Below, piece by piece: positions 27,789 to 39,145 of a stretch of 64,000 nucleotides of DNA. The stretch's first letter is position 1; each line of letters starts with the position of its first letter. This stretch comes from Candidatus Undinarchaeales archaeon (GTDB taxonomy: Archaea > SpSt-1190 > JASMDC01), in assembly GCA_030753015.1 (NCBI GenBank), contig JASMDC010000014.1, positions 16,440 to 80,439 on the forward strand, given 5' to 3'. A program made the position numbers and the translations under genes. The notes beneath the pieces were generated by a model. The model was not told where the DNA came from and ran no database searches. It saw nothing but the letters and a program-made list of their open reading frames with translations.

Positions 27789-29117
27789 ATGACGGATGAT
27801 GGCATGTCGGTTAGGTTCCATGGCTCCGGTCTCGAGGTGGGTCGCAGCGCCATCAGCGTCAGTGTCCCCGGTACGCGTTTGCTCCTCGACTGTGGGCTCA
27901 AGCTCGTTCCAGAAGGTGAGGAGCATCCTCTTGCGCTCGATGAGCTCACGGGAGAGCTGGACGCCGTGCTCGTCTCCCATGCCCACCTCGACCATGTCGG
28001 CTATCTATCTGACTTTGTTGCGGCAGGCTATCACAATCCCATCTACATGACCGAACAGACTGCGCGGCTGACCCGACTGTTGCTCGAGGACTCGGCCAAG
28101 GTCAGGGAGATCCTGGGACACCACTCTCCAGATCCGGGCCCTGCGCTCGACCTGATCCAGCACGTACGGCTGGAGGAGGAGGTCCGACTTCCCGGAGGCA
28201 CTACCTTCTCCGCTCATCAGGCCGGTCATATCCCTGGTGCGGCTGGCCTCCTTGTACGGGGCAGGGGCAGGTCCATCTTCTACACAGGTGACATTTGTAC
28301 ACGTAAGCTCCACACCATCCCACCAGCAGAGCTACCACAGGGGCCCGTGGATTGCCTCATTCTCGAGTCCACGTACGGTGGGCTCAGTGATGTCCTCCCG
28401 ACGATCGAAACACGTGACAGGGCGTTCATGGAGATGATCGGGACGGCTCTCGAACGTCGTGGTACGGTCCTTGTACCGTCCTTCGCGGTGGGACGGTCAC
28501 AGGAGGTCATGCTCACCCTCCATGAACACAAGAAAGAGCTTCTGCACCACGGCAATGTCAGGGTCGTACCGTGCGGCGGCATGCTCTTCGGAGCCACCAA
28601 GGTCTACGACAAGGAGGCGAAAAGGCCTATCGGACTAGACACTAAGAATGGCCCGCTGTCACCCATCCATATCCCCAAGAACCGCCGGATCGAGAAGGTC
28701 GCATCCGGCGAGTTCCCGACGATAGTCATCGCTACTGCCGGCATGCTTACCGGCGGCAGCTCACCCCGATACCTGCGACATCTTGCCGGTGATAGCCGGA
28801 ACCTCATCCTCATCGTAGGATATCAGGCGGAAGGGACTCCCGGCAGAGAGCTGTTGGATGGTTCACGTCGGATAATGATAGACGGACAGCAAGTGGACAT
28901 CAAGGCCGAGGTCGGATTCGTGAGCTTCTCGTCCCACACCTACCACGAGCAGTCCCTATCCCTGGTTCAGGATCTCTCTCCCGGGACCGTGCTCTGTAAT
29001 CATGGAGAGCCATTGAAATGCGCTGAACTCGCCAGCGCGGTGGAGGAGCGGCTCGGGATCAAGGCCTCGGCGCCACCGAACGGTACGATGATCAGGGTGG
29101 CTGCACGTCCGACATAA
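27789..29117 (+). CDS. MBL-fold beta-CASP ribonuclease (archaeal CPSF2-like)
   Basis: 442 residues. Metallo-beta-lactamase motif 2 SHAHLDHVGYL, motif 3 HQAGHIPGA, ESTYGG, then beta-CASP motif A/B segments (IATAGMLTGGSSPRYL) and motif C SSHTYHEQS near the end. Such enzymes are zinc-dependent RNA endo/exonucleases in archaeal 3'-end formation and decay. The N-terminal KH domains of aCPSF1 are absent, so it belongs to the short aCPSF2-like class. Cytoplasmic, leaderless, convergent with the CetZ operon end. Confidence 0.87.
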   Translation: MTDDGMSVRFHGSGLEVGRSAISVSVPGTRLLLDCGLKLVPEGEEHPLALDELTGELDAVLVSHAHLDHVGYLSDFVAAGYHNPIYMTEQTARLTRLLLEDSAKVREILGHHSPDPGPALDLIQHVRLEEEVRLPGGTTFSAHQAGHIPGAAGLLVRGRGRSIFYTGDICTRKLHTIPPAELPQGPVDCLILESTYGGLSDVLPTIETRDRAFMEMIGTALERRGTVLVPSFAVGRSQEVMLTLHEHKKELLHHGNVRVVPCGGMLFGATKVYDKEAKRPIGLDTKNGPLSPIHIPKNRRIEKVASGEFPTIVIATAGMLTGGSSPRYLRHLAGDSRNLILIVGYQAEGTPGRELLDGSRRIMIDGQQVDIKAEVGFVSFSSHTYHEQSLSLVQDLSPGTVLCNHGEPLKCAELASAVEERLGIKASAPPNGTMIRVAARPT

Positions 29118-29157: not shown

Positions 29158-30156
29158 CTACAGCTCGGAGTACTCCTCTTGACGACGGCGGATGATGATG
29201 TAGCGCATATAGAGCAACACCACGACGCCCGTGATGAGGATTATCGAGATGAGCAGGACCTGGACGAGGTTCTCGAAGTCAAGCTTCGCGATGTTATACT
29301 CCACGTGAGCGTCCCAGTAGATGTATATCATCTCCTGGGCCGAGTCGTGCTGTCCGATGACCGAATAGGAGCGACGCGCGCTCTCAAGGGCGCTCTTCCC
29401 CTGGGCGTAGCGGATCATCTTGAGATACGACACTGAACCCGCGTAGTCCTGGATAATCTGCTTCCCTTCAGCGCTCTTCTCCAGGGCATTGGTCGTATGG
29501 GCCGTACAATCCTCTACGGCCTCTTTGTGGCGGGTGGCATACTCCTCTGCTCTGGCCGATTTGCACGTGCGTGCCCATGAAGAGACCCGATCGAGCACTT
29601 CGGCCTGACGACACACGTTCGGCTCACCTTCCACGATGGCGTCGAACACGGAGAGCGCGACGAAGCAGATGTCCTCGTAGGTATCGTCCACGTTCGTGAG
29701 GACCTCGGTGACCTCCTCATGCTCGAAAGAGGCCACGGTGAGGTTCTGCCGGTCCTCGGCGAGTGCCTCGATATTGTCGGTTATGGTACTGAAGCTCTCG
29801 ATAGATTGGGCCTGCTCGTATGCCATGGATGATGCTGTGACCGCCCAGTACGTATCTCGTGTGTGATTGATGAAGTCATAGGTGGACGAGAGGAAGGTGG
29901 CCCCGAAGGTACCGTCCTTGCCGGAAGGGAGAGTCTGCGAATCGCAGAGGTAGGAGAGGTCCCGGGCGAAGTGGCACACCGATGAGGCCGTTGGGATGTC
30001 GGTTATGAACGTATCCCGGTGGCCACGCGAGATTATCTCCGAGTAGAGATCGATGAGCTGGCGACACGGTCGCGGCTCCGCCAATACCGGCATCAGCATA
30101 ACGAGCAGTACTACTGTCGCAATGACCAGTAAGCGGGTCGTTCCATTCGACCTCAC
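29158..30156 (-). CDS. exported single-pass membrane protein, last gene of the CetZ operon
   Basis: 332 residues. Signal peptide (LLVIATVVLLVMLMPVLAEP), helical ectodomain with seven cysteines (PCRQL, SVCHFA, YLCDS, EDICFVA, NVCRQ, RTCKS, EDCTA), one C-terminal membrane helix (LVQVLLISIILITGVVVLLY) and a short basic cytoplasmic tail RRRQEEYSEL. The ectodomain reads as a long alpha-helical bundle. It overlaps the preceding gene by 4 bp. No family recognised. Its topology is the same as that of the protein encoded just upstream. Confidence 0.6.
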   Translation of the reverse strand: MRSNGTTRLLVIATVVLLVMLMPVLAEPRPCRQLIDLYSEIISRGHRDTFITDIPTASSVCHFARDLSYLCDSQTLPSGKDGTFGATFLSSTYDFINHTRDTYWAVTASSMAYEQAQSIESFSTITDNIEALAEDRQNLTVASFEHEEVTEVLTNVDDTYEDICFVALSVFDAIVEGEPNVCRQAEVLDRVSSWARTCKSARAEEYATRHKEAVEDCTAHTTNALEKSAEGKQIIQDYAGSVSYLKMIRYAQGKSALESARRSYSVIGQHDSAQEMIYIYWDAHVEYNIAKLDFENLVQVLLISIILITGVVVLLYMRYIIIRRRQEEYSEL

Positions 30157-33032
30157 AGCTCAAGCACCTTCTGCGTCTTGATCCGATAACGCACGTACAT
30201 ACCTGTGATGATGACGGTGACCATGAACGCGAATGCCACGACGACATTGACCAGTGTCGACCAGAGCATGGCCAGGTCCTCGCGTTCGCTCTCGATGATG
30301 ATGAGCTCGTTCCGCACACGTTCCGCGTCCTCCGTGAGATTCAGGTACTCACTTCCTAAGTCCCCTACAATCTCCCTGTACTCTTTGATGACCCTGTCGT
30401 ACTTCTCCAGCGCGCGAGGGGGGAGGATACGGTCGCCCAATGCCTCCTGTCTGAGACCTTGGACATTCTCATACTTCGTCGAGACCTCGTCGAGCTTGTC
30501 GATGATATTACAGCGCAGGTTCACCCGGCTGAAGAACACGTTGGCCATGGCACCGTTGTGGCGCAGACGCTCAGAACGTGTCGTGGGTTTCAGGCAGTAG
30601 TACCTTCCGACATCCTCGAACGTTTTCAGGAGGGTGGCATTGGCCTTCTCGCAGATCGGCCGCGCCTCCTCGATATCGATGCACAACACTTCGAGGTTGC
30701 GCTCGGTCGAACGCAAGATGGAGAGAGCGCGGACCGACGTGAGATTATGGCTCCGCTTCATTTCGTTGAGGGTTAGGACGTTCGTCGAGAACACCGAGAA
30801 GGAAGATACGAGGGAGGCGGCTTTCGCCGACATGACCGGATCTTTCTTCGACCAGTCATCGCAGTGGACCAGGAAATCGCGCAGAGCCTTCTTCTCCTCT
30901 GGGAACCGTTTATCGATGAGCTTGATGTCGTCCCGGGCCTTCCGACAGCTCGGTGGGATGATCTCGAACTCCATGGGTCTCTCATCGGCGGCCCGGTCAT
31001 CGTTCAGGGCATCGATGACAAGGCCGATCGTGTAGTCCCCTCTCGGATCGGAGAAGTCGAACCCAAGGCCTATTGGCAGCGTAAGGCGGCCCCCCTTGTC
31101 GATCTCGAACACGGGCGAGGGTACCTCTACTGCTTTGGCATGACGCACACACGCCTCCCCGGCCCCAACGGGGCAGGACCGGGCAACGACACTGAACGTT
31201 ATGTTCCGGAGAGGGGTGAACCCGCCAACCTCTGCCAGGGTGAGGCTCGTGTTACCAGTGATCGACGGCGGGCGTTCCTTGTAGAGCGTGAGCTTGTCCG
31301 GCATCTCGATCATGAGCTGTGGGTGGGGGATCGTGAAGGAGAATGGGACCGTCCGGTCACCACGGTCAGGTATGGTAATGCGCAGCCCGCAGGTGTACTT
31401 ATCTGGCGGGAGGTAATGGGGTACGTTCACCTCGAGGTCGAAGTCACCGGTCTCTTTTGCCGATACACCGATAGTCCCCTTAGCGACAGTGATGAATGTA
31501 TTATTGAAATCACAGTCCACGATCTCGCCAGTAATCCCCTCAGCACAACCTCCATCGACCTCGATGATGGTTATGTTCTGTGACCGGAAATCCCCGCAAG
31601 GGAGCTCACGCATGTCCACATTCTCTGCCTTGAGGAGATAGTCAAAGCGTGGTACTTTGAGGAACAGGACTGTCTCTTTCTTTGCTTGTTCGGTCTTCGT
31701 GCGTGGATATGTCGCTGCTAGCCGGCCCGTGTACTCCCCCGCATTGATGTACTTGGGGACCATGATATTCAGGGTACCGCTTATCCGGTCACCAGGGGAG
31801 AGGTTGTCGGTCTTTTCAGCTTCGAACTCGAATGTGAAGTCCTTGATATTGCCCGTTATGTCCAACTTGAGGTCACGAACGCAGCCGGAGGTGGATGGTA
31901 CGTACAGCTCGATGGGCTGCTTGAGCTCCCCCTTGCAGGGTGCGTCGAGCCCGATCGACCGGGGGCTCAGACGGAGCTCTGGAGGTCGGACTGACACAGC
32001 TGCGGGGACCTGTAGCATTTCATCCCCGAAGCGGAGGTTGATCTTGTAATCATCCTGCTTCTCATCCTCGTCCTCCAGGAGCGTGAGGTTGCCCAGAGTG
32101 AAGTCGACAGTTACCTTACCGCACTTGGGGAGCGTGTAGCTCTTCGAAGTGAAGATGAACGGATGGTCGTCCATGTTCACGTCAACTTCGAGCGGCAGAT
32201 CGAACACGCAGCAGCGGTCCTCGATGGTTATGGTCCGTTCCTCGTTACCACAAGCGTTCTCGAATGAGAATGTATCAGGGCTTACTCGTACGTCCAGCGC
32301 TGGCACGAACCGAATGTTCAGGTCCACGACGATCTCAAGGGCGTTCGAACCCTCGATCCGAAGGGGTGTCGAATAGGTCGTCCATGGTGTGAGCACCTGT
32401 ACTGTCTTCATGTTGAGCGTGATGTATTGGACCTGTCCCGATCTGACCTCACTGAAGCTCAACTGGTTCCCGAAGCGATCACCAAGGCTGATCTCCAGAG
32501 GACAATCCCCGTCCTCGTTACACATGTATGATGAGTCCAATTGTGCCACAACGTTGTACGCGTCGAGCTTACCCTGATTGGTCAGGGAAAGACTGTCCGT
32601 AACCTTGACGGCCCCGGAAGAGCGACATGGGATCTCGATGTCCTTTGCGTACTCTATCGGAACGGTGCGGAGGTTGGCACGCGCTTTCGCTACGTTGAAG
32701 GAGACGTATGTGGACTTCGGGCTACCGGTCAGGTTGTAAGCCTCGATCTTTAGCTTGTAGCTGCCTGTGCTCAGCTTCCCGATCATTATCTCGTGGCTTG
32801 TGGACCAGGAAGCATCGGTCCCGAGGACACGACCCCGGTCGTCCTTGACCTGTGCCTGGGAGTTCTGATTGGTCGAGATCGTGATCGTGAGAAGGTCTGC
32901 ATCGGTCGCATAATCATAGGGTTCCTTCGATGCGATGACCTGAGCGGAACTCGTGAACCTGAAGTCATCCGCCACGGCGGACAAGCAGAGGAGGATCGAC
33001 AGAGCGAGTAGTATGCGCTGGTAGCGAGCCAT
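30153..33032 (-). CDS. large exported beta-sandwich protein with C-terminal membrane anchor (CetZ operon)
   Basis: 959 residues. Signal peptide (RILLALSILLCLSAV), then about 700 residues of repeated beta-sandwich domains of roughly 110 residues, each with a similar close (e.g. VSVRPPELRLSPRSIGLD, FVPALDVRVSPDTFSF) and paired cysteines (ENACGNEERT, EDRCCVF), like NEW3/CARDB-type adhesin modules. Residues about 700-920 are helical and coiled-coil-prone. One membrane helix (LVNVVVAFAFMVTVIITGMY) and the tail RIKTQKVLEL end the protein. The start codon directly follows the upstream stop. Probably a surface stalk or scaffold. Confidence 0.62.
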   Translation of the reverse strand: MARYQRILLALSILLCLSAVADDFRFTSSAQVIASKEPYDYATDADLLTITISTNQNSQAQVKDDRGRVLGTDASWSTSHEIMIGKLSTGSYKLKIEAYNLTGSPKSTYVSFNVAKARANLRTVPIEYAKDIEIPCRSSGAVKVTDSLSLTNQGKLDAYNVVAQLDSSYMCNEDGDCPLEISLGDRFGNQLSFSEVRSGQVQYITLNMKTVQVLTPWTTYSTPLRIEGSNALEIVVDLNIRFVPALDVRVSPDTFSFENACGNEERTITIEDRCCVFDLPLEVDVNMDDHPFIFTSKSYTLPKCGKVTVDFTLGNLTLLEDEDEKQDDYKINLRFGDEMLQVPAAVSVRPPELRLSPRSIGLDAPCKGELKQPIELYVPSTSGCVRDLKLDITGNIKDFTFEFEAEKTDNLSPGDRISGTLNIMVPKYINAGEYTGRLAATYPRTKTEQAKKETVLFLKVPRFDYLLKAENVDMRELPCGDFRSQNITIIEVDGGCAEGITGEIVDCDFNNTFITVAKGTIGVSAKETGDFDLEVNVPHYLPPDKYTCGLRITIPDRGDRTVPFSFTIPHPQLMIEMPDKLTLYKERPPSITGNTSLTLAEVGGFTPLRNITFSVVARSCPVGAGEACVRHAKAVEVPSPVFEIDKGGRLTLPIGLGFDFSDPRGDYTIGLVIDALNDDRAADERPMEFEIIPPSCRKARDDIKLIDKRFPEEKKALRDFLVHCDDWSKKDPVMSAKAASLVSSFSVFSTNVLTLNEMKRSHNLTSVRALSILRSTERNLEVLCIDIEEARPICEKANATLLKTFEDVGRYYCLKPTTRSERLRHNGAMANVFFSRVNLRCNIIDKLDEVSTKYENVQGLRQEALGDRILPPRALEKYDRVIKEYREIVGDLGSEYLNLTEDAERVRNELIIIESEREDLAMLWSTLVNVVVAFAFMVTVIITGMYVRYRIKTQKVLEL

Positions 33033-33959
33033 TCAACCACGCCCCAGGAGCAGGAGCACCGCACCAGCGATGGCCAGTATCACCGACACCCCCAAGGCAC
33101 CTAGGGCCACCGACCGGGGCTGGACGATGTTAGTGGAGCTTGTGAACGTTTTCCAGAACTCCACTTGTGCACGATACTTCCGATCGTAGGCGATTATGAT
33201 AACGATCACCAGGAAGCATCCAACGAGCGCTGCCGGGGCTATCCGCGTCGTTACGAGCCCGGGAATGCGTGTGCTCTCATCCTCCAACAACATCTTAGAC
33301 TTCTTGAGTTCCTCCTTGAAGCTCTCAAGAGGGGCCTCGGGCCCGAGCCCGGTAACTCCCATTTCCTTGATGTTCTTCTGTGATGCTTCTCCGGCCTCGA
33401 CGACACGCGACTCGTACAATGAGGGGTAGTCAAGAAGGAACTTGCGCTCGGGTTCAGTCAAGGCTGCGAGCTCTTCCGACGTCGGGACCGTGCCAATGCG
33501 CAGGTCCGCTGTATACCGGGAGAGCCTTAGGGCACGACTGGCGGTCATTACCGATTCATGTACGCATGAGGGCCGGTCACATATCGTTGCCCAGGATATC
33601 TCCATCCAATCGGTGATTAGCGTGTCGACACGGGCTCCTGACTCGGACACCGCACGCGTCACCTCTGAAATGAAGCCCGACATGACATGCTTGAAGGATT
33701 CCGGTGTGCAACCAGTAACTCCGCTGAGCGCCTGTTCTCCAGTCTCGCATATGGAGAGGTTAGCAAGGACCGGATCATCAACATATCCTTCGATGAACTT
33801 CGCGTCCATTTTTCCACGGACAGGTCTGATGAGATCGATACAATCCTTGGGAGCACCTTTATCCGGTTCGCAAGCAGGTGGTTCGCCCTCGAACACGAAC
33901 TGTGTACATCCACTGATGAGTACGAATGAGAGCAGGAGAACTGCGTACTTACTCTTCAT
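33033..33959 (-). CDS. exported lipobox protein with two C-terminal membrane helices (CetZ operon)
   Basis: 308 residues from ATG 33959, chosen because it opens a clean signal peptide MKSKYAVLLLSFVLISGC with a lipobox (LISGC, Cys18); longer starts lie inside the upstream gene. The ectodomain (about 20-215) is helical with further cysteines. Two hydrophobic helices follow (ALVGCFLVIVIIIAYDRKYR and ALGALGVSVILAIAGAVLLL). It overlaps the upstream stop by 11 bp. If lipidated it would be fixed to the membrane at both ends. No family recognised. Confidence 0.6.
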   Translation of the reverse strand: MKSKYAVLLLSFVLISGCTQFVFEGEPPACEPDKGAPKDCIDLIRPVRGKMDAKFIEGYVDDPVLANLSICETGEQALSGVTGCTPESFKHVMSGFISEVTRAVSESGARVDTLITDWMEISWATICDRPSCVHESVMTASRALRLSRYTADLRIGTVPTSEELAALTEPERKFLLDYPSLYESRVVEAGEASQKNIKEMGVTGLGPEAPLESFKEELKKSKMLLEDESTRIPGLVTTRIAPAALVGCFLVIVIIIAYDRKYRAQVEFWKTFTSSTNIVQPRSVALGALGVSVILAIAGAVLLLLGRG

Positions 33960-35886
33960 CGTCCTCACCCTCCCAATAGTCATCATCGTCGGCCTCAGTA
34001 TCATCAACCTCGGCCTTCGCCTGTACGGCCTCGCTCGCCCCCTTGTTCGGCTCCTTGCTTCTCTTTGGGACGGGAGCTCCCCTTACAATGGCGAGTCCAA
34101 GAAGAGCGCCAAGCAGACCACCGAGCCCGAAACCGAAGAGGATACCGGGAACGCCACCGACCGCGGCGTTCGTCTTGGCGTTCTTCGCCCGCTCGATCTC
34201 GACGACGGCACGCTGTCCAAGGAGGTCCTCTCGTTCATGGAGCGACTCCACGGAAACCGCGGCCATAGCAAGACTATCGAGCGCTACCGTCTCGATGCTC
34301 AATGAAGAGGAACTGCTCCCGCACCGGCCATCAGTGCAAGTGACGTTGATGTAAACTACACAGGCGCCTCCGGTGGAGGAGTAAACTACGGTCCCGTTGA
34401 CGTCCGCGCGGGCGGGTACGGTCCATCCCTCGTTGGCCGCTGTAAGGCCTTCTATCTTAAGGCCCGTAGCACAGCCTGCATTATCCGTGACCTTGAGGAG
34501 GCGTTCAAGGTCGGCCGGCACCGTCCCAGAGAGCTTGATCGAGAAGGGGTACCGTGATGCCATCCCGGTGAAGGTGCGCTGTGACGTGGTACCAATATCC
34601 AGGCTCTGGACAAGTGGAGCTCGAACGAGGAACTCGGCGCATCCCTCGCCGGAGAGCCCCTTGATAACGGCACAAATAGCATGGAGACCTGCAGCGTCCG
34701 GGACGAGACCGAGGTCTTTGAGTGCATATGGTTTCCCAGATACGACCTGGAACACCTTGGAGGATGAGGCAAGGGTCTCACTGCTGGTAACGGTGATATT
34801 CAGAGGGAGGACGATGTCAGGAACGCCGGTGACCGTGACGGACGTCTCGACCGTGTCCCCGGGGAACACCTCGAGGCGATCGTGTGAGAAATATATGTGG
34901 AATGCTCCCGAGCCCAGCTGTGTGATGGGAGCACGGACCAGTGTCTCCACGGTCTCGTTGCGCTCGAACGAGTAGGTGACGTGTAGCATATCGGTGCCAT
35001 TGAACAGCGGGCGGAGCGTGAGAGCGACGGTCGTTCCCGCGACAGGCTTCATCACAAGGAGCTCGGTCCGCTCCCCGTCCTTCCAGCTTCCGAGCACCTC
35101 GAAGGCCTCTGTGTTCACGGAGACGGTGAGGATGCGATCGGTGCGCTGTTCATTAGTGAAGACCACTGTGGCGTTGAAGGTCTCGTTCCCCTGGAGGACC
35201 GTTGCAGTGGTCGTGAGTTCGGCCGTCGGCAGCACGGCGGGCACATCGACCTCAGGGCCTGTGACTTTCCCCTTGACCATGGCTTCGATCACGCACGTAT
35301 CCAAGGTCACATCGCCCTCTCCAGTGGCCGTGAGCGTGATGGTGGTGGACCCTCCGCCAATGGCGCGGAAGGAAGCGAGCTTCACGATGCCCTGAATCAT
35401 GCTGGTGACGTTCTGAGCGTACTCGAGAGTAAGCACCGAGTCATCGAAATCCGCGGATACGTTCGCATCGGTAGCAAAGGCCCATGCGCTCACATCAAGG
35501 TTATCGCCGAGGTCCAGTGTGACAGATGCATCGGGACAGAGCAGACCCACAGGTTCTCGAGGCTTGATCTCGACCGTGGCCCACGTCCGAACGGTACCGG
35601 ATGTGCGGTTGACGAGGGTGAGGTTGAGCTGTGGATTCTCTACAACAAGGCCATATGGCGGTGCCGTCACATTGACGATCACCTCGAAATTGGACCCTGC
35701 AGGTGGGAATGACACGGTCGCGTAGGATGCGGCGGACGCGGGATCCACATCTACGACAATACCTTCGGTCGCTGTGACAGGCGGAAATGTACAGCTCTCG
35801 GACGAGCCCTCCCGAAGTGGGCCTAGCGAATCGCACGTCTTGAGTGCGAACGCTGGCGATATCATTAGTGTAAAGAGGAGCACCAA
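33949..35886 (-). CDS. exported beta-rich protein with membrane anchor and acidic tail (CetZ operon)
   Basis: 645 residues from GTG 35886. Exported N-terminus VLLFTLMISPAFA; about 530 residues of beta-sandwich ectodomain with several cysteines and N-glycosylation sequons (NVTAPP, NLTLVNRT, NETFNAT); a short helix; a glycine-rich membrane segment (GILFGFGLGGLLGALLGLAI); then about 45 cytoplasmic residues ending in a strongly acidic run (DDDDYWEGEDDEE). The GTG start leaves no positive charge before the hydrophobic core. The frame continues 12 codons upstream and would supply SPRSIRLIG, but only ATA or ATT could start there. Confidence 0.62.
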   Translation of the reverse strand: MVLLFTLMISPAFALKTCDSLGPLREGSSESCTFPPVTATEGIVVDVDPASAASYATVSFPPAGSNFEVIVNVTAPPYGLVVENPQLNLTLVNRTSGTVRTWATVEIKPREPVGLLCPDASVTLDLGDNLDVSAWAFATDANVSADFDDSVLTLEYAQNVTSMIQGIVKLASFRAIGGGSTTITLTATGEGDVTLDTCVIEAMVKGKVTGPEVDVPAVLPTAELTTTATVLQGNETFNATVVFTNEQRTDRILTVSVNTEAFEVLGSWKDGERTELLVMKPVAGTTVALTLRPLFNGTDMLHVTYSFERNETVETLVRAPITQLGSGAFHIYFSHDRLEVFPGDTVETSVTVTGVPDIVLPLNITVTSSETLASSSKVFQVVSGKPYALKDLGLVPDAAGLHAICAVIKGLSGEGCAEFLVRAPLVQSLDIGTTSQRTFTGMASRYPFSIKLSGTVPADLERLLKVTDNAGCATGLKIEGLTAANEGWTVPARADVNGTVVYSSTGGACVVYINVTCTDGRCGSSSSSLSIETVALDSLAMAAVSVESLHEREDLLGQRAVVEIERAKNAKTNAAVGGVPGILFGFGLGGLLGALLGLAIVRGAPVPKRSKEPNKGASEAVQAKAEVDDTEADDDDYWEGEDDEE

Positions 35887-35922
35887 TCCAATTAGACGTA
35901 TGGATCTAGGAGAAGCTATCGC

Positions 35923-37206
35923 CTACCCCCCTGAGAAGAACTCCATCTCAGTAACGTTATCAAAGAGCGCCTGTGCTTCATCCGGTGAAGTCTTGCTCGC
36001 TTCACGGAGGGTCTTGCGGGCCCAAGCGTTCCCCTTGACCTCGAGCTCCTTCAATCGCCCCACGTCCTGCGGTCTGTAGGTGAAGGACGTTGTGACGGAG
36101 ATCTCGGGATTGTCGGTCGGGACCACACCATGATGGAGCTCCTTACGAGTGAGGCGGCCCTCTTGGTCCTTGGTGATGGTCTCGAAGTATATCTTGTTCA
36201 GGTACTTCTTGTTCACCTTGAACACCATGGCGGCAGAGACAGGGAGCGTCTCTTCCAGCCCGGTCATGAGCTGTTTCGACCAGCACTTCATGGCCTCATC
36301 CGCGACCTGCTGAGTCTTGTCCTTTGATAAGAAGGGGAGCATCGTCTCCGAGAAGCTCAGGAACATCTGGCTACGTCCGATCGAGGCGATACCGGGCTTG
36401 CCCGGCATATAGGCAAGAGCTCGGATGTAGTCCGCAATGTCGAATGCGGGCAGGTTGAGCTTGCCCGTTGAGTCCTGGATGGACACGATGAGGTCGAGCA
36501 CGAGGTTCTTAAGGGAGTCGACCACCATCTCGTTGAACACAGGTATCTTCTCGATGAAGGCGCCATGACCACGCTCGAGAACGACCTGGTTATCGACGAC
36601 GATGAGCCCGTCGACGAGGTCGAGCATCTTGGTAATGTTCCACACGGCGTTCCAGGCACGCATGTAGCCTTCGCTCTCCTCGGCAGGGAGCACTGCGACA
36701 GCGATGATGGGCGTGTTCGGGTAGATAAGCTTGAGGAACTCTGCGATCTTGGGTGCAGTACCGGAACCCGTACCACCGCCAGCACCGAACGCCATGAGGA
36801 TGACCGGAGGCCCGTTCTCACCCATCTTGAGGTGTAGGAAACGGCGGAACTCGGGCAGGAACTCGTTCTGGTGTTCCTCGAGAAGGATGTGGCCCTTCCA
36901 AGGTGTAGCGCCCATCCCGCCCTTCACGCGACCTTCGAAGTCGGTCTGGTCGGTCTTTCCTAGGGCAGGAGCCACGCACGATCCGTCGATCCCGATACCC
37001 ACGACGGGATCGAGCTTGAAGGCCTTGCGCAGGTTAGGGCAAGCGCGGTAGTAATCGGTGAACCCTGATGTGATGCACACAGGAGTGATGAACACCGACG
37101 GGTCCTGTTTGAAGAAGTCAAGGAATGTCTTCTCACCCTTCAGGTTCATATACAGCTGGTCGAGTATCTTCATCCCGCACTGACCAAGTCCCACTGCACC
37201 GTACAT
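35923..37206 (-). CDS. CetZ/tubulin-superfamily GTPase
   Basis: 427 residues. T1 loop GLGQCG (6-11) is closer to tubulin (GQCGNQ) and CetZ (GQAGG) than to FtsZ. The tubulin signature GAGGGTGSG is at 141-149. The catalytic T7 loop LPAFDIADY keeps both acidic residues (D256, D259), so polymerisation-coupled GTP hydrolysis should be intact. No FtsZ-type C-terminal tail peptide. CetZ proteins control archaeal cell shape and surface structures. It is leaderless (palindromic TATA at 37228-37237) and heads an operon whose next four genes all encode exported, membrane-anchored proteins, so the filament probably works at the membrane with them. Confidence 0.88.
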   Translation of the reverse strand: MYGAVGLGQCGMKILDQLYMNLKGEKTFLDFFKQDPSVFITPVCITSGFTDYYRACPNLRKAFKLDPVVGIGIDGSCVAPALGKTDQTDFEGRVKGGMGATPWKGHILLEEHQNEFLPEFRRFLHLKMGENGPPVILMAFGAGGGTGSGTAPKIAEFLKLIYPNTPIIAVAVLPAEESEGYMRAWNAVWNITKMLDLVDGLIVVDNQVVLERGHGAFIEKIPVFNEMVVDSLKNLVLDLIVSIQDSTGKLNLPAFDIADYIRALAYMPGKPGIASIGRSQMFLSFSETMLPFLSKDKTQQVADEAMKCWSKQLMTGLEETLPVSAAMVFKVNKKYLNKIYFETITKDQEGRLTRKELHHGVVPTDNPEISVTTSFTYRPQDVGRLKELEVKGNAWARKTLREASKTSPDEAQALFDNVTEMEFFSGG

Positions 37207-37227: not shown

Positions 37228-37237
37228 TTAATATTAA
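37228..37237. promoter_or_regulatory. palindromic TATA region between cetZ-like and ubiquitin-like genes
   Basis: TTAATATTAA centred at 37232.5, 26 nt before the GTPase start on the minus strand. On the plus strand the same AT block (extended by ATAGG) would give a leader of about 20 nt for the ubiquitin-like protein. One control region probably serves both. Confidence 0.55.
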
Positions 37238-37282
37238 ATAGGTATTCGTGCCATTCCGTGACGGATCCGGGGGCCGTGACCT

Positions 37283-39145
37283 ATGACAGGAATGTACTAT
37301 ATCCGTCTTGCTACCATTGATGAGGTCTTTCAGGTCCACCCCTTCGATCCCAACGATCCGGGACAACCCCTGCTCGAGAACTTCACACGCATCGTCGGTA
37401 GCGTCTACCACCTCTCGCGTATCTACAGGCTCAAGTCCATCGGTCTATACGTCCATTATGTATTGGAGCGGGCCAAGACCTGGGTCACCGAGGAGGAGGG
37501 CGACTACGTGCTCAACGTCGAGGTGCCCACTACCTGGACCTATCCCAGTACCGTGGAGCTGCTCTCCGAGATGGCTGCGAGCAAGTATCGCGATAACAGG
37601 ATGAAGCTCACAAAGCGGGCAGAGATGGGTATCAATCCCTTCCTCAACCAGGCCGTTTCCAGCATACAACGTATGCAGGTCTCCGAGCTACAAGGGCTCG
37701 TTGATATCCCGGATAACGTAGCACGGGCCTATATCGCCAAGCTTCGGGGTGAGCAGCAGACCCTCCTTCGTAATCTTGTTATCGGCAAGCTCCTCGCGGC
37801 GGGGAAGCTCTACGCTACAACCCAGCAGGCAGATGCCCAGCACACCGTCTGCGTCCGATGTGGGAACGTCCTTGACCTGCAGCGAAACCGCTGCCCGAAG
37901 TGTTTCTCCGCCCACCAGGGCGTGAAGTTCCAGGTCTATGTGACCGCATGGCAGGATGGCGAACCGGGAAAAGATTTCCTTGTGTTCCCGATCGAACCTC
38001 TGAAATCGATCCTCCCCAATCCCACATCCCCTCTTTTCGAGCAGACAATGCTCAAGGAGCTCGTGCTCCAGCATTTCAAGATTAGCGGGGACAGCGAGGG
38101 CTTCGTGCTCATGGACCTGGACCGCTCGCAGGAAGGGACATGGGAGCGCACTAATCTCCTACTTCACGGTCGGAGGCTAGCGCTTGTGCCCTCTGATCGC
38201 GCCCCGGACATCGACGATTCCGAGATCTACGCCCAGCTCCGTTTCTCTGATGTGTGCGCCGACTTCATCCAGCTACGGGTGACTCTCCCCGGGAACAGAG
38301 GGACCGTGGCCCACTCGGTAAGCCCGGAGACGCGCCTCGGGGACGTCGCCGATGCGGTGGTCAATAAAGCGGGGCTCAAGCTGGCGGACACCATCCTTGT
38401 TCGTGGGGGGCATCCCCTTGACCGGGAGGGGACCGTGGGCCAGGTAGGGCTCGTCAGCGGGGAAGAGGTCACCGTACAGGCCGTAGCACAGATGGCCGTG
38501 TTCATCCCAGAGATCGGGGGTACGAAACGATTCGGTGTCCCCGGGCGGATCACTGCTGCCCAGGCCATCGACCTCCTCAAGACACGATGCAATCTGACAG
38601 GTGATTACGTGCTCTCACAGGGTTCGGTATTCCTTAATCCAGATCACATTATCGATCCTGCTGCGCTCAGCAAGGGTGCGGGATTGCGTCTCAACCAACT
38701 CATCACCGTTGGTATCCAGCTCGCGGGGAACGTTCATACCATCAGTGTCTCGGCCGAGTCGACGGTCGGCGACCTGCTCAGCAATCTCAAGGTGCGCGTC
38801 GGTGTGAACGGAGTGCTCGTTGCCCAGCTCAAGGGTGCGGTCGTCCCTAGCACCACACTAATTGGTGAGCTCGATCTCAAGAAGGGACAGAACCTCGCGG
38901 CCGTGGAACGTCAGGTCAAGATGATCAACCTAACCATCTCACCGATCGAGGGAGGGAAGGACACCAAGGTATCCATAGCTGAGGACCAGACAGTCTCCTC
39001 GCTCAAAGTCCAGCTCCGTACGATGCTCGGTCTCCCCGATAGCTCACGCATGGACCTCGTTTTCGGGGAGAAGGTGCTCAAGGACGATGCATCCCTGATG
39101 GAGTCCGGTGTCGGGGAAGGCGCGAACCTCTTCCTCATGGGATAA
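37283..39145 (+). CDS. zinc-ribbon protein with four tandem ubiquitin-like (beta-grasp) domains
   Basis: 620 residues, no signal peptide or membrane helix. Residues 1-185 are an unrecognised helical domain. A zinc ribbon follows (C190, C193, C204, C207). After an alpha/beta linker (210-325) come four repeats of about 70-75 residues: 328-402, 404-476, 477-545 and 546-620. The last is unmistakably ubiquitin-like: hairpin, VSSLKVQLRTMLGLPDSSRM helix, then DLVFGEKVLKDDASLMESGV, matching ubiquitin LIFAGKQLEDGRTLSDYNI in order and spacing. It ends LFLMG, a single glycine, not Gly-Gly. ATG 37292 is an alternative start. Divergent from the GTPase operon, 76 bp away. Confidence 0.75.
   Translation: MTGMYYIRLATIDEVFQVHPFDPNDPGQPLLENFTRIVGSVYHLSRIYRLKSIGLYVHYVLERAKTWVTEEEGDYVLNVEVPTTWTYPSTVELLSEMAASKYRDNRMKLTKRAEMGINPFLNQAVSSIQRMQVSELQGLVDIPDNVARAYIAKLRGEQQTLLRNLVIGKLLAAGKLYATTQQADAQHTVCVRCGNVLDLQRNRCPKCFSAHQGVKFQVYVTAWQDGEPGKDFLVFPIEPLKSILPNPTSPLFEQTMLKELVLQHFKISGDSEGFVLMDLDRSQEGTWERTNLLLHGRRLALVPSDRAPDIDDSEIYAQLRFSDVCADFIQLRVTLPGNRGTVAHSVSPETRLGDVADAVVNKAGLKLADTILVRGGHPLDREGTVGQVGLVSGEEVTVQAVAQMAVFIPEIGGTKRFGVPGRITAAQAIDLLKTRCNLTGDYVLSQGSVFLNPDHIIDPAALSKGAGLRLNQLITVGIQLAGNVHTISVSAESTVGDLLSNLKVRVGVNGVLVAQLKGAVVPSTTLIGELDLKKGQNLAAVERQVKMINLTISPIEGGKDTKVSIAEDQTVSSLKVQLRTMLGLPDSSRMDLVFGEKVLKDDASLMESGVGEGANLFLMG

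Follow-up and report, generated by a model that had tools for sequence, protein, structure and literature searches.

A divergent tubulin-like GTPase gene in an archaeal operon with genes for four exported, membrane-anchored proteins

The DNA analysed here, which we refer to as the window, is a stretch of 64,000 nucleotides from a Candidatus Undinarchaeales archaeon and forms part of an 80 kb contig of a 3.85 Mb genome (98.9% complete, 5% contamination). Its minus strand carries five tightly coupled open reading frames, which encode a tubulin-superfamily GTPase followed by four exported, membrane-anchored proteins. Coordinates and junctions were as described in an earlier note on this DNA, with a 36 bp gap between the genes for the GTPase and a 645-aa protein, an 11 bp overlap between the latter and a lipobox gene, direct abutment (0 bp) of the lipobox gene and the gene for a 959-aa protein, and a 4 bp overlap between this gene and that for a 332-aa protein. 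The features are as follows, whereby clade G1 and the beta and helical families are described further on.

37228-37240, minus strand: TATA-like element TATTTAATATTAA, about 29 nt before the GTPase ATG, read from the sequence
35923-37206, minus strand: tubulin-superfamily GTPase, 427 aa, taken to be a divergent member of clade G1 (PF00091, tree, AlphaFold2 model)
36760-36780, minus strand: T4 signature loop GGGTGSG of the GTPase, residues 143-149
36430-36441, minus strand: T7 catalytic loop D-I-A-D of the GTPase, with D256 and D259
33949-35886, minus strand: exported 645-aa protein with a signal-like N-terminus, one C-terminal transmembrane segment (574-594) and an acidic tail
33033-33959, minus strand: lipobox protein, 308 aa by translation, starting at the ATG at 33959, with transmembrane segments 234-262 and 278-297
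30153-33032, minus strand: exported 959-aa protein with beta-domains, a helical stretch, a C-terminal transmembrane segment and a short basic tail
30765-31967, minus strand: part of the 959-aa protein that aligns with the beta family, residues 356-756 (hhalign)
29158-30156, minus strand: exported 332-aa protein with a signal-like N-terminus and a C-terminal transmembrane segment, probable counterpart of the helical family

The TATA-like element TATTTAATATTAA is likely the promoter of the five-gene unit. Terminators between the genes had been named earlier as evidence that would speak against a single unit; a scan of the coding strand with rules for the bacterial consensus only gave no terminator-like site within the unit. 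The GC content of the operon (0.56-0.59) resembles that of the window (0.585), thus there is no sign of a recent import. Nine other genomes of the same class in the searched set, all of 0.6-1.1 Mb, did not contain the GTPase of the operon. A role in anti-phage defence was also considered and was dropped, since PADLOC gave no match. The unit is flanked by a divergent gene at 37283-39145 (plus strand) and a convergent gene at 27789-29117 (plus strand). The product of the first, 620 aa long, combines a zinc-ribbon-like stretch with several domains of ubiquitin type (Rad60-SLD, 1e-8; ubiquitin, 3e-8; OTU1_UBXL, 7e-8), which is unusual in an archaeon, and the second encodes a 442-aa beta-CASP nuclease-like protein, for which the nearest profiles, aCPSF1 (271 bits, cut-off 580) and type VII Cas14 (213 bits, cut-off 800), were both below their cut-offs.

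The GTPase matches the Pfam Tubulin profile PF00091 with an E-value of 1.4e-20 (74.8 bits, cut-off 33). It had been noted before that the signature loop and both T7 aspartates are kept; G143, G145, T146, G147 and G149 of the T4 loop (GSGTGAG in two relatives), as well as D256 and D259 of the T7 loop, are invariant in 19 G1 proteins. The protein is predicted to take the tubulin fold: the AlphaFold2 model (pLDDT 81) includes the C-terminal activation domain, and its best fold match in the PDB is CetZ1 (4b46, E 4.9e-20), with CetZ crystal structures ranking ahead of FtsZ. CetZ proteins are also the best solved structures when searched by sequence profile. In a maximum-likelihood tree, the window GTPase and 16 relatives, which include second copies from two genomes, formed a clade, G1, with support values of 100/99 and present in all bootstrap trees, which lies apart from CetZ, FtsZ and a second GTPase of the clusters described below. 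This placement was kept (100/97) after removing nine long or doubtful rows, and forcing the window protein into CetZ cost 21.9 log units (p-AU 0.045). The earlier note had implied that the GTPase is a CetZ, and on these values we do not retain this identity. With a G1 profile from which it had been left out, the window protein scored 148 bits, compared to 105 bits for a CetZ profile, and when the other divergent lineages were omitted from the G1 profile, the score was 94 bits. The window GTPase forms a long branch and is 28% identical to its nearest G1 relative, and its advantage for G1 over CetZ is modest. We take it to be a divergent G1 member, outside both CetZ and FtsZ. An identity as division FtsZ was likewise rejected, as the FtsZ equivalog TIGR00065 gave 41 bits, far under the cut-off of 295, and the protein is separated in the tree from the three ordinary FtsZ proteins encoded in the same genome. 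With these three genes, division is covered.

Single-sequence scans for the GTPase in genome contigs and viral contigs found nothing, and an alignment-based scan of contigs did find relatives. The window genome carries further tubulin-like genes. On contig C75 (2943-5249 and 6411-9826), a tubulin-like gene and a weakly tubulin-like gene of 342 aa stand in tandem, adjoining genes for two exported proteins of 659 and 521 aa with a transmembrane segment near the C-terminus; according to the tree, this locus lies outside the G1 clade. On contig C117 (7854-11698), a third non-FtsZ tubulin-like gene is located beside a gene for a multi-pass membrane protein and is divergent from that for a 457-aa exported single-pass protein. 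Elsewhere, a gene of the CetZ clade according to the tree (L041, 7844-10184) is directly followed by a gene for a 394-aa protein with a signal and a C-terminal transmembrane segment, which is missing at the locus of a relative (L042), and another archaeal genome (G046) contains five tubulin/FtsZ-like genes nearly in tandem (L040, 7592-13158).

The 959-aa protein, labelled a beta-sandwich protein in the earlier note, is a member of a beta family by sequence: a profile of eight other archaeal proteins, from which the window protein was excluded, matched it with an E-value of 1.1e-12, and hhalign aligned residues 356-756 with this family (97% probability, E 7e-11). Its structural model, which is of low confidence (pLDDT 54.5), consists of beta-domains followed by a helical bundle and is in agreement with the label. 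The best matches of this model are Ig-like domains of ciliary central-apparatus proteins, followed by an RTX adhesin and cadherins, and a haloarchaeal relative of the beta family gave a weak match to a HYDIN/VesB Ig model. The ciliary likeness was set aside, given the low-confidence model and the commonness of the Ig-like fold, and it probably reflects this common fold.

The helical family consists of helical, exported single-pass proteins with a C-terminal transmembrane segment and was found in 16 genomes, all within the set that carries the beta family. Helical and beta proteins resemble each other in the C-terminal half (E 8e-5 and 1e-4). The 332-aa protein shares with the helical family its place beside the beta gene, its size and its layout. 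Its match to the helical profile was collinear and weak (E 0.003, and E 2 with a larger model), and hhalign against the helical family gave no match. We consider it the probable counterpart of the helical family, for which the evidence from sequence is marginal. It had been described as Cys-rich, which fits only loosely, as it contains 7 cysteines (2.1%) and the 959-aa protein contains 22.

No relatives of the 645-aa protein were found in the 227 genomes searched, and a homology with either the beta family or the large exported protein of the clusters described below was looked for and not found. The lipoprotein likewise has no convincing relatives in the genomes searched, with a 58-residue match (E 3e-4) as the only hit. 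Hydropathy places two transmembrane segments after its lipobox, LISGC, a layout that is the same as that of a haloarchaeal cluster protein of 337-352 aa, without a significant sequence match. Homology of the lipoprotein with this ~350-aa protein or with the coiled-coil family was looked for and not found. We regard the lipoprotein and the 645-aa protein as extra exported parts of the module in the window, and the exact operon with these two is known from this one genome.

We searched 394 archaeal genomes with a G1 profile that included the window protein. G1 was found in 18 genomes at 280-634 bits; the next matches, of 178 and 175 bits, were second copies in two of these same 18 genomes, and all others scored at most 125 bits. 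The beta family, counted at a score of at least 100 bits with a profile that again included the window protein, was also present in 18 genomes, and 17 genomes were common to both sets. A GTPase that occurs alone in related genomes had been put forward as a refutation of the link with the exported proteins, and this is not what the searched genomes show. The two mismatches were G253, which is 88% complete and has the beta family with G1 not found, and G375, 62% complete, with the reverse. Hypergeometric probabilities of the overlap are about 1e-27 by genome and 3.6e-12 by family, and since they take no account of common descent at deeper levels, and the cut-off scores were chosen once the gaps had been seen, they are indicative. 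In three of the 17 shared genomes (G155, G262 and G332) the main module genes lie on different contigs, yet all are present. The linkage and co-occurrence of G1 with the beta family are conserved in eight families and, in addition, in Halobacteria.

The neighbourhoods differ in content between lineages. In JACRDV01 (L037), genes for the beta protein, the helical protein, a 212-aa protein and G1 follow each other on one strand. In Hydrothermarchaeota (e.g. L104, L107 and L109), the G1 gene is followed by one for a ~455-aa protein with an N-terminal transmembrane segment and a predicted coiled coil, and then by a gene for a second tubulin-like GTPase (T2). These three genes are divergent from the helical and beta genes, beyond which lies a gene for a protein of 800-900 aa that has exported Ig/propeller-type domains and, behind an internal transmembrane segment, one more domain. 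The fullest module is found on haloarchaeal plasmids, in Halobacterium salinarum R1 (PHS2, OE_RS12075 to OE_RS12025), Halobaculum roseum and a Natrinema sp., where G1, T2, a third tubulin-like protein whose N-terminus is Cys-rich and zinc-finger-like, the coiled-coil protein, the large exported protein, the helical protein and the beta protein are encoded on one strand. The helical profile, which held one haloarchaeal row, matched with 1e-28 in R1 and 4e-39 in H. roseum, and the beta profile, which held none, with 1.5e-35 and 8e-37, respectively; the Natrinema genes were assigned from annotated order and tail sequence only. In Halovenus salina most of the set is chromosomal. The coiled-coil family is absent from the window genome (G000) and from G031, and for the second GTPase there were only generic tubulin matches below 40 bits in the former and none in the latter. 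Conservation of gene order, which had been proposed as a check on the operon, and co-occurrence thus extend the link well beyond this genome for the GTPase and the 959-aa protein, and probably for the 332-aa protein; the 645-aa protein and the lipoprotein were so far found only here.

Export signals and membrane anchors had been assigned to all four proteins behind the GTPase, and hydropathy, together with the lipobox, supports this. There are signal-like segments at the N-termini and C-terminal transmembrane segments in the 645-, 959- and 332-aa proteins. The 645-aa protein is enriched in N-glycosylation sequons (12 versus 3.7 in shuffled sequences, with 0/2000 shuffles as high); the enrichment is weak in the 959-aa protein (10 versus 5.5, p 0.04), and there is none in the GTPase in the same comparison. 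The signal-like segments, the C-terminal anchors and the enriched sequons argue that the large domains of the 645- and 959-aa proteins are outside the cell. The short segments behind the anchors were compared by inspection. In Hydrothermarchaeota and Halobacteria, the tails of both beta and helical proteins show W/Y-x-x-D followed by G-x-hydrophobic in most sequences, and in JACRDV01 the last residues of both are EEIFE with one or two more behind it. The W/Y-x-x-D pattern is absent from the window, where the 959-aa and 332-aa proteins end in KVLEL and EYSEL, respectively. We read these tails as a similar handle that beta and helical proteins may present to one cytoplasmic partner, although the likeness could also stem from a common origin of their C-terminal halves.

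On balance, we think it slightly more likely than not that the operon encodes a divergent form of a trans-envelope module conserved in archaea, whose tubulin-like polymer would organise surface proteins via their tails. G1 would probably form GTP-dependent protofilaments under the membrane, where the short cytoplasmic tails of the single-pass proteins would hold the polymer, and the ectodomains, one a rod of beta-domains and the other a bundle of helices, would stand outside in or under the S-layer. The polymer would gather the single-pass proteins through these tails, or be gathered by them, and polymer and ectodomain proteins may organise each other's position into a local surface patch, which, as a guess guided by the architecture, could serve in adhesion, in cell shape or in assembly of the surface. 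The cytoplasmic layer of Hydrothermarchaeota and Halobacteria would be reinforced by T2 and the membrane coiled-coil protein; that the window and JACRDV01 lack these two counts against the module reading. The earlier note had proposed a cytoplasmic filament with a dedicated surface complex, of which the link between the GTPase and exported proteins gained support from synteny and co-occurrence; the CetZ identity that the note implied did not. A stronger version, that of a dedicated machine with a mechanical coupling, via the single-pass proteins, between one or several tubulin-like polymers and an ordered extracellular scaffold, is a possibility that we hold tentatively and would not bet on. 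The module looks accessory rather than part of the division apparatus, because the same genome has three FtsZ genes and most haloarchaeal versions are plasmid-borne.

Several other explanations have to be weighed against this reading. Membrane remodelling has been proposed for FtsZl1 operons, which are rich in transmembrane proteins (Makarova and Koonin, PMC2875224), and in a comparable remodelling or vesicle system the polymer would bend the membrane, with the exported proteins as cargo or outer scaffold. The coiled-coil membrane protein and the two or three tubulins of the larger clusters would suit this, but none of the hallmarks of FtsZl1 (vWA protein, kinases, OmpA) was observed and the Tubulin_2 profile stayed below its cut-off of 27 bits, with 14.7 for the window GTPase and 21.7 for the H. 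salinarum G1, so that we find such a system unlikely. A scaffold coupled to a pilus or to secretion, with G1 positioning the appendage or secretion complex, has its model in Thermococcales, where CetZ genes are found by type IV pilin-like operons and beside pilin regulons (PMC9856176), an arrangement also visible at L039 and L043, and the exported multi-domain proteins do resemble adhesins. However, pilin-type genes, an ATPase or a platform protein were not noticed in the G1 neighbourhoods examined, and this explanation is more doubtful still.

Tubulin relatives are often active at division sites, and single-pass proteins with large ectodomains resemble the layout of a divisome. G1 might on these grounds be a specialised factor for division or for the septum that assists the FtsZ ring, with remodelling of the septal coat left to the exported proteins. 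The patchy occurrence, the plasmid location in haloarchaea and the separate FtsZ genes in the same genome make this very improbable. The explanation to which we give the least credence is that of ordinary surface proteins whose genes, in the window genome, have no more than a promoter in common with an unrelated CetZ-like gene. For two of the four, convincing relatives are indeed lacking in the genomes searched, but the conserved linkage and co-occurrence of G1 and the beta family in eight families and in Halobacteria largely refute chance sharing for the GTPase and the 959-aa protein.

In the connection of archaeal tubulin relatives to the cell envelope, SepF is the known anchor of FtsZ, whereas for most CetZ-like proteins, to our knowledge, no partner in the membrane is known. 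The trans-envelope module that we favour supplies conserved candidate membrane partners with cytoplasmic tails for a tubulin-like protein. The joint inheritance of G1 and surface proteins in distant archaeal groups suggests a machine that links an inner skeleton to an outer coat. The complete set is present in the genetically tractable Halobacterium salinarum R1, on a plasmid, where loss may be tolerated, which makes the idea directly testable.

A description of the pairing of G1 with beta and helical single-pass proteins was not found in the literature, in a search that was thin on subscription journals, and it is apparently an undescribed module of a known superfamily. The nearest precedents are the neighbourhoods of CetZ genes and the membrane systems of FtsZl1. 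Also comparable are the Halo.Tub genes, haloarchaeal tubulin-like genes in quasi-tandem copies by unknown genes (Santana-Molina et al. 2023, PMC9871819), some of which may be G1 or T2 of the haloarchaeal clusters. That paper calls the contexts unrelated and defines no module, and its main text does not mention transmembrane proteins or signal peptides. Like G1, FtsZl1, of the Tubulin_2 type, is a divergent GTPase of the tubulin superfamily encoded in operons together with membrane proteins, and a central place in membrane-remodelling systems has been proposed for it (PMC2875224). G1 differs in its intact T7 loop and in the Tubulin_2 score given above; vWA, kinase, P-loop GTPase and OmpA partners were not noticed beside G1, and no vWA match was obtained among the window and haloarchaeal cluster proteins scanned. 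CetZ, as known from Haloferax volcanii (CetZ1 and CetZ2) and Thermococcales, shares with G1 the tubulin fold, the T4 and T7 motifs and a GQCG-type N-terminus, and some cetZ genes adjoin pilin-like and surface genes (PMC9856176). In contrast to CetZ, G1 is a clade apart and carries an additional segment after the T1 and before the T4 loop (W-x-G-[IM]-S...RGF...GGYGKN); its linkage is to single-pass ectodomain proteins of the beta and helical families, whereas CetZ is linked to pilins or cofactor genes. Read as a polymer coupled to an outer scaffold, the machine would be unlike CetZ, divisome or pilus systems.
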